From: an uncultured Nitrospina sp.
Lineage (GTDB): Bacteria > Nitrospinota > Nitrospinia > Nitrospinales > VA-1
Assembly (NCBI GenBank): GCA_913045445.1
Contig: CAJWQP010000009.1
Span: forward strand, 1 to 54,277
Reading direction: 5' to 3'
DNA length: 54,277 bases
Shown here: positions 10,831-11,658 of the stretch, piece by piece
Numbering within the stretch: position 1 is the first letter of the stretch
Layout of the letters: every line of letters begins with the position of its first letter
The notes under the pieces: generated by a model
The model's database searches: none
Seen by the model: only the letters and a program-made list of their open reading frames with translations
Told to the model about the DNA's origin: nothing
Position numbers and translations under genes: made by a program

Positions 10831-10878
10831 CGAATATTAAAAAAAATTAATCTCGCATTAATAAAGTTTTAATATTCG
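10831..10878. repeat. long two-part inverted repeat upstream of TATAAT
   Basis: A perfect 12-bp arm, CGAATATTAAAA (10831-10842), pairs with TTTTAATATTCG (10867-10878). Inside it a second 6-bp pair, ATTAAT/ATTAAT (10846-10851 and 10857-10862), closes a CTCGC loop. The right arm ends 6 nt before the TATAAT at 10885, so it covers the expected -35 region. It has no T-run after it, so it is not a typical terminator. It could be an operator or a cruciform. Confidence 0.6.
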
Positions 10879-10884
10879 ATATCA

Positions 10885-11009
10885 TATAATGCGCTCAGTA
10901 ATTTTCTCCTCCTTTCAGGGGGGAACCTATAGTTCCCGCTATTATTCTCCCCGCCTCCTCTTTAAAAGGGAAACAGGATGCTTTAAGTAGCCTGTTTCCC
11001 TGTTTTTTT
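10885..11009 (+). ncRNA. candidate small RNA with two anti-Shine-Dalgarno-like stretches
   Basis: A consensus -10 TATAAT (10885-10890) predicts a start near 10897. The roughly 110-nt transcript would contain CTCCTCCTTT (10906-10915), a perfect hairpin GGGAAC-CTATA-GTTCCC (10921-10937), a second pyrimidine stretch CCCCGCCTCCTC (10949-10960), and the terminator ending at 11009. CCTCCTTT is identical to the usual anti-Shine-Dalgarno end of 16S rRNA. No clear -35 is seen. Alternatives are leader RNA of the gene at 11161 cut by an attenuator, or a decayed repeat element. No reading frame of substance is present on this strand. Confidence 0.4.
10968..11009 (+). terminator. strong intrinsic terminator
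   Basis: A perfect 10-bp stem, GGGAAACAGG (10968-10977) with CCTGTTTCCC (10991-11000), a 13-nt loop, then TGTTTTTTT. It ends either the candidate small RNA or read-through from the TPR gene. Confidence 0.85.
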
Positions 11010-11160
11010 GGCTTTTTTACCTCATTGGAACCCCTCCTGTTACAATAAATTGCAATTTTAGAGATAATTGAGTTAGAATTCCCACGTATCCACTTAAAGA
11101 CCCTTTCATTAAGTTGGCCATTAAGCCTTTGTATGGATAGGGTTTTAGAAAAGATCCCCA

Positions 11161-11658
11161 ATGAAATTCAAACCCACTCTATTACATCCGGGCATTTTAA
11201 TTCTCTTATTCTCGCTATGGATGACTCCCGCGATAAGTCATGCGGGAAATGTAAATCAAATCAGGCTTTCTGATGGAAGCCTGATTCAGGCGGAAATAGT
11301 ATCGTTTGCTAACGGTGTGTATAAATTACGTTCTGAATCCCTGGGAACATTTTCCCTGGCAGAAAATCGTATTCAGTCCATCAAGCCGAATAAATCGGTG
11401 CAATTTAAAGCGACAGACCCGTTGGTCGGACAACAGATGCAAAGGTTACAACTGGAATTGATGTCCGACCCTCAAATGATGGGTCTGCTTTCAGACCTGC
11501 AAAACGATCCAGCTATAAAAAGTATTCTTCAGGATAAAGAACTCATGCGAGCCATCGAACAGGGAAATTTAAACAAGGTGGGGCAAGACCCAAAAATCCA
11601 ATCGTTGATGAACAGTAAAGCTGTTGAAAATATCATCAAACAACATCAACAAAAGTAA
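11161..11658 (+). CDS. secreted protein with STI1-like C-terminal region
   Basis: 165 aa. A signal peptide (hydrophobic core ILILLFSLW, cleavage near SHAG) is followed by a small beta-rich segment (IRLSDGSLIQAEIVSF... to about residue 80). The helical C-terminus is rich in DP-containing repeats: MSDPQMMGLL, QNDPAIKSIL, GQDPKIQSLM. These resemble the STI1/DP2 motif of Hsp70/Hsp90 co-chaperones and related bacterial proteins. Function unknown; periplasmic location is inferred from the signal peptide. The gene ends 14 nt before orn and is probably co-transcribed with it. Confidence 0.7.
   Translation: MKFKPTLLHPGILILLFSLWMTPAISHAGNVNQIRLSDGSLIQAEIVSFANGVYKLRSESLGTFSLAENRIQSIKPNKSVQFKATDPLVGQQMQRLQLELMSDPQMMGLLSDLQNDPAIKSILQDKELMRAIEQGNLNKVGQDPKIQSLMNSKAVENIIKQHQQK

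Follow-up and report, generated by a model that had tools for sequence, protein, structure and literature searches.

A conserved small RNA family of Nitrospinaceae with anti-Shine-Dalgarno stretches and a promoter box shared with htrA genes

Does the segment at positions 10885–11009 of the window (the whole stretch of 54,277 nucleotides analysed here) encode a small RNA (sRNA) and, if so, what might such an RNA do in the Nitrospinota, a phylum that, according to a published study (PMC10839748), includes the most abundant nitrite oxidisers known from the marine water column? A search of open-licence papers on Nitrospina with small RNA and noncoding RNA retrieved no paper. The preliminary description of the window had proposed a candidate sRNA carrying two copies of an anti-Shine-Dalgarno (anti-SD) sequence, and this proposal is borne out by family-wide orthologues, compensatory changes in the stems, and conserved anti-SD stretches that are predicted to be unpaired. 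On sequence evidence, which suffices to establish the gene, its structure and conservation, its promoter box and the genes that share this box, the segment is a real, previously undescribed sRNA gene that belongs to a conserved family of sRNAs in the Nitrospinaceae (Nitrospinota).

The elements named in the preliminary description (TATAAT, the anti-SD stretches, GGGAAC/GTTCCC, the terminator and T7) are all in place, base for base, on the plus strand. The −10 element TATAAT (10885–10890) is followed by an RNA of about 113 nt (10897–11009), its predicted start placed from the −10 element, which is delineated by covariation and by a covariance model match (10898–11009, 83 bits). Within it, CTCCTCCTTT is read at 10906–10915, GGGAAC at 10921–10926, GTTCCC at 10932–10937 and CCCCGCCTCCTC at 10949–10960. 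The first anti-SD stretch, CUCCUCCUUUC (10906–10916), matches the 16S rRNA 3' end of a family member and is predicted to be single-stranded (unpaired probability 0.99 in the window; column conservation 0.976). The next element, hairpin 1 (10918–10952), supported by folding and covariation, consists of an 8-bp outer stem and a 5-bp inner stem; this structure, GGGGGGAA...UUCUCCCC, is both the minimum-energy and the conserved first hairpin (−14.6 kcal/mol) and outcompetes the 6-bp inner GGGAAC/GTTCCC hairpin (−7.4 kcal/mol) that had originally been put forward, which is not the conserved one. L003, the closest relative, retains the outer hairpin but has mostly lost the inner one. Of the two single-stranded anti-SD stretches initially proposed, the first thus stands, and the second is shifted: its CUCCCC part is paired in hairpin 1, and the open part is GCCUCCUCUUU (10953–10963; conservation 0.906), predicted to be mostly single-stranded (unpaired probability 0.71 in the window and 0.88–1.0 in other genera). 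Hairpin 2 and the U-tract (10967–11009) form a predicted intrinsic terminator, with a perfect 11-bp stem, AGGGAAACAGG/CCTGTTTCCCT (10967–11001), and T7 at 11003–11009.

The fold of 10897–11012 is far better than those of shuffled sequences (z −4.0; 0 of 200 shuffles), and the same holds for 10900–11010 (z −4.9). In an alignment of 18 sequences, 17 of the 24 base pairs in the two hairpins show two-sided changes, compared to 5.4 in shuffles and 3–8 when the partner strand was slid, and none of 500 shuffles reached the observed value; because the structure was derived from the same alignment, this test somewhat favours it. Standard pairs occupy 94.5% of the cells. The changes in the terminator stem are many and consistent in this alignment, with two-sided changes in all 12 modelled pairs. 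The most conserved parts of the RNA are the unpaired anti-SD stretches (0.976 and 0.906, against 0.82 for the stems), which are predicted to be single-stranded in nearly every member, the second stretch having its lowest unpaired probability in the window and L003 (0.71). Hence the conserved loops and compensatory stem changes proposed as a check on the candidate were both found.

The window is contig 9 of a draft genome, and MAGs of the Nitrospinaceae are the nearest named relatives of this genome. A BLAST search produced one close copy in the same genus (L003, 87%), plus short matches, limited to the promoter and the anti-SD, in two other genera. A pattern built from these matches (TTAAT-N6-TTAAT, 25–42 nt, CTCCTCC) was found in 31 of the 46 family genomes, representing all nine genera, compared to no matches for the reversed pattern; in a few of the 31, the match is not the sRNA gene but a related leader or another element. 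The covariance search suggested in the preliminary description has now been run: the model, built from 18 sequences, matches 40 of the 77 genomes of the phylum, nearly always once per genome, and identifies orthologues throughout the family as well as in two related ones. The weak matches inspected in families f2 and f3 contain the box, the anti-SD and the hairpin; the match in G066, without the box and without CUCCUCC, is probably false. In several incomplete genomes of the window's own genus, the model found no match, a result that may reflect either gaps or divergence. The orthologues occupy the same locus in most genera, downstream of glnD and a TPR gene, and in the named MAGs the sRNA gene lies upstream of orn. 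The layout of two hairpins and two anti-SD stretches holds in the window but not throughout the family: in genera g2, g7 and g8, as well as in families f2 and f3, the RNA is shorter and has only one main hairpin and, in some genera, one main anti-SD, with a T run directly after the hairpin in several cases. Searches of the window and 13 relatives against Rfam gave no match at the gathering score, the weak matches being far below the cut-offs, and a phage origin was considered for the segment, for which no match was found. In a block downstream of the sRNA, at 11057–11136, the window and L003 share about 90% identity, a level as high as that of the sRNA; this block is perhaps the promoter of the gene at 11161.

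Upstream of the −10 element lies a putative activator box, not mentioned in the preliminary description, which comprises four TTAA direct repeats on the plus strand (10837–10840, 10847–10850, 10858–10861 and 10869–10872; spacing of 10, 11 and 11 bp; total span 10837–10872). All four TTAA words are invariant in the 34 sRNA promoters with a CUCCUCC-type element, the search for which imposed only the last two repeats, and the last repeat precedes the −10 element by 10–11 nt in nearly all promoters. Repeats of this kind are characteristic of activators of the OmpR/PhoB family. With their last copy some 11 nt ahead of TATAAT, in the manner of OmpR-type activated promoters, they explain the missing −35 element. 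When all four repeats were instead required to be 11 bp apart, the search yielded background only, the first step being 10 bp.

The box is common to the sRNA, to htrA, which encodes a periplasmic quality-control protease, and to two small-protein genes. A scan of six genomes with the four-repeat pattern, with downstream genes assigned by inspection of the sequence, detected 23 perfect boxes, 22 of which precede an sRNA, htrA, TusA-like or small basic protein gene. Both the sRNA and the TusA-like small protein have a perfect box in all six genomes, and the remainder precede six htrA genes, four small basic protein genes and one sensor kinase; imperfect boxes add further htrA genes, including that of the window's genome. 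The shared htrA boxes, together with one htrA that adjoins genes resembling dnaJ, grpE and dnaK (as read by eye), point to envelope protein quality control. Motif inspection revealed no OmpR-type gene beside htrA. The Pho regulon, considered because of the 11-bp repeats, was rejected: no recognisable phosphate gene follows the inspected boxes, and htrA recurs instead. Two representative TusA-like proteins score just below the Pfam cut-off; proteins of this type (MxxFKTLDIRGLSFF...) follow the box at L118, L123, L127, L128, L132, L144 and L162. The small basic protein, 52–70 aa long (motif MNDxRVYEVKxFDxxGKLKKV), matches no Pfam or NCBIfam family, and its orthologue in the window's genome (L119) has the box, too.

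We consider it likely that the gene encodes a stand-alone, trans-acting sRNA, activated through the box under envelope stress, that masks SD sequences on mRNAs. With regard to transcription, regulator, stress signal, base pairing and targets, we infer the following. A response regulator of the OmpR/PhoB type would bind the four TTAA repeats and activate the promoter that has no −35 element; the presence of the same box ahead of htrA/degP protease genes makes protein misfolding in the cell envelope the probable trigger. The resulting RNA would expose two single-stranded CCUCCU stretches, kept apart by the two hairpins, and would end at the intrinsic terminator. These stretches may then pair with purine-rich SD sequences and block ribosome binding on mRNAs, and the synthesis of some proteins would be lowered while HtrA clears the damage. 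The sRNA probably dampens protein synthesis under envelope stress, presumably by translational repression through SD masking.

The 16S rRNA 3' end of one family member reads GGATCACCTCCTTTCT, so that stretch 1 (CUCCUCCUUUC) repeats the ribosome's own anti-SD (CCTCCTTTC), and a long duplex between stretch 1 and an SD is possible (computed energy −20.4 kcal/mol). SD masking by the same motif has been demonstrated in reporter assays for NfeR1 (PMC10746234), and pairing with start regions has been proposed for the csRNAs (PMC3091779). A search for a dedicated target with long complementarity found near-perfect complements at the control level, and start regions outperform controls in pairing only modestly, which is weak evidence because the rule by which the starts were picked is crude and in itself selects for strong pairing. 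Alternatively, the RNA, as a mimic of the 16S 3' end, might lower the translation of most SD-led mRNAs at once or titrate a factor that binds the anti-SD tail. The identity of stretch 1 with the ribosomal anti-SD is compatible with such a general role, as is the fact that no long specific complement stands out, but the conserved block ACUUUUCUCCUCCUUUC exceeds the anti-SD core, suggesting more specific pairing, and general anti-SD mimicry should be costly, which makes this an improbable alternative to the control of selected targets.

Another alternative to a trans-acting RNA, a leader or attenuator acting in cis on the downstream gene, derives from a related box–anti-SD–hairpin element, carried by genera g4 (L088–L092), g5 (L254) and g8 (L178), in which the same box, CUCCUCC and one hairpin make up the leader of the gene for the 52–70-aa basic protein (in L178, a T run separates the leader hairpin from the gene). 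At the window's locus, however, the RNA has a strong terminator of its own, and the gene that follows varies by genus (orn, an arginine-deiminase-like gene and others) while the RNA stays, so that regulation in cis appears very unlikely here. A decayed mobile hairpin repeat, which the preliminary description had raised as a worry and for which an intergenic, hairpin-rich segment might be mistaken, can be effectively dismissed, given the orthologous position, covariation and conserved promoter across genera, and the single copy, the only other BLAST match in its own genome being its own terminator stem on the other strand.

The favoured reading, a trans-acting sRNA that masks SDs, can be compared with two known systems. 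The csRNAs of the CiaRH regulon of Streptococcus (PMC3091779, PMC8186281) are similar in that their promoters contain an 11-bp TTTAA-type direct repeat ending about 10 nt before the −10 element (10–11 nt here in nearly all promoters), htrA is under the same regulator as the csRNAs, just as htrA here carries the same box as the sRNA, and the RNAs are short and terminated, with an unpaired anti-SD, as predicted here. The box itself differs: there are four repeats here, with TTAAT/TTAAC in place of the invariant TTTAAG, and when compared with the CiaR box, NTTAAG-N5-TTTAAG with an invariant G (PMC3091779), the spacing is the same, but in the last two repeats TTAA is followed by T or C, not G. The anti-start CAU of the csRNAs has no consistent counterpart inside the predicted transcript and occurs near the predicted start in a few members only; the first anti-SD of the Nitrospinaceae sRNA, unlike that of the csRNAs, is at the 5' end; and there is usually one RNA per genome, against five csRNAs in S. 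pneumoniae, a member of an unrelated phylum.

The cuckoo RNAs of Alphaproteobacteria (ar14/NfeR1 and CcsR; PMC10746234, PMC10253847) share with the Nitrospinaceae sRNA a repeated CCUCCUC-type anti-SD motif that lies in unpaired regions, together with variable stems, and their expression is linked to stress, for which the putative envelope-stress link would be the parallel here. The cuckoo/ar14 model RF02344 gave 19.7 bits against a cut-off of 58.8 (L099), and the cuckoo layout of three hairpins, each with an unpaired CCUCCUCCC, is replaced here by one or two hairpins with anti-SD stretches before and between them. NfeR1 is Hfq-independent, and the CcsR RNAs are associated with a small DUF1127 protein (PMC10746234, PMC10253847). 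In the Nitrospinota, Hfq (PF17209) was not found in 7 genomes, compared to 5 of 14 controls in which it was found, and the small basic protein gene shares with the sRNA the box and, in some genera, the leader; unlike the DUF1127 neighbour of CcsR, it does not adjoin the sRNA, whose neighbours are glnD, TPR and orn-type genes. Since defining features of each system proved to be lacking, we assign the sRNA to neither the csRNAs nor the cuckoo RNAs: the circuit resembles both CiaRH-csRNA-HtrA and the cuckoo RNAs but belongs to neither.

What is gained is an sRNA family, a promoter box and a compact regulon, in bacteria without detected Hfq. If confirmed, the recurrence in two unrelated phyla of a TTAA-repeat regulator, HtrA and an anti-SD sRNA would point to a solution reached repeatedly, in which misfolded envelope proteins are cleared while the protein supply is lowered. 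A more speculative extension, to which we attach little probability, is that the Nitrospinota independently evolved an Hfq-free, streptococcus-like envelope-stress circuit in which one regulator controls HtrA, the anti-SD sRNA and the 52–70-aa basic protein, the latter being the dedicated RNA-binding partner of the sRNA, as CcaF1 is for the CcsR RNAs.

Several further elements were observed. The PAS/HAMP sensor kinase preceded by a perfect four-repeat box was seen in one genome only, G036 (L181, the same site as L242:7349), and may either belong to the signalling pathway or be a chance match. In g1 (L105, L106 and L263), a gene resembling those of MarC-type membrane proteins is preceded by a different element, which has CAGGTCTCCTCCTG and carries CUCCUCC in the loop of a small hairpin. 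Finally, g8 (L137 and L138) has a second candidate for a box-driven RNA, in which a long hairpin comes after CUCCUCCUCC.
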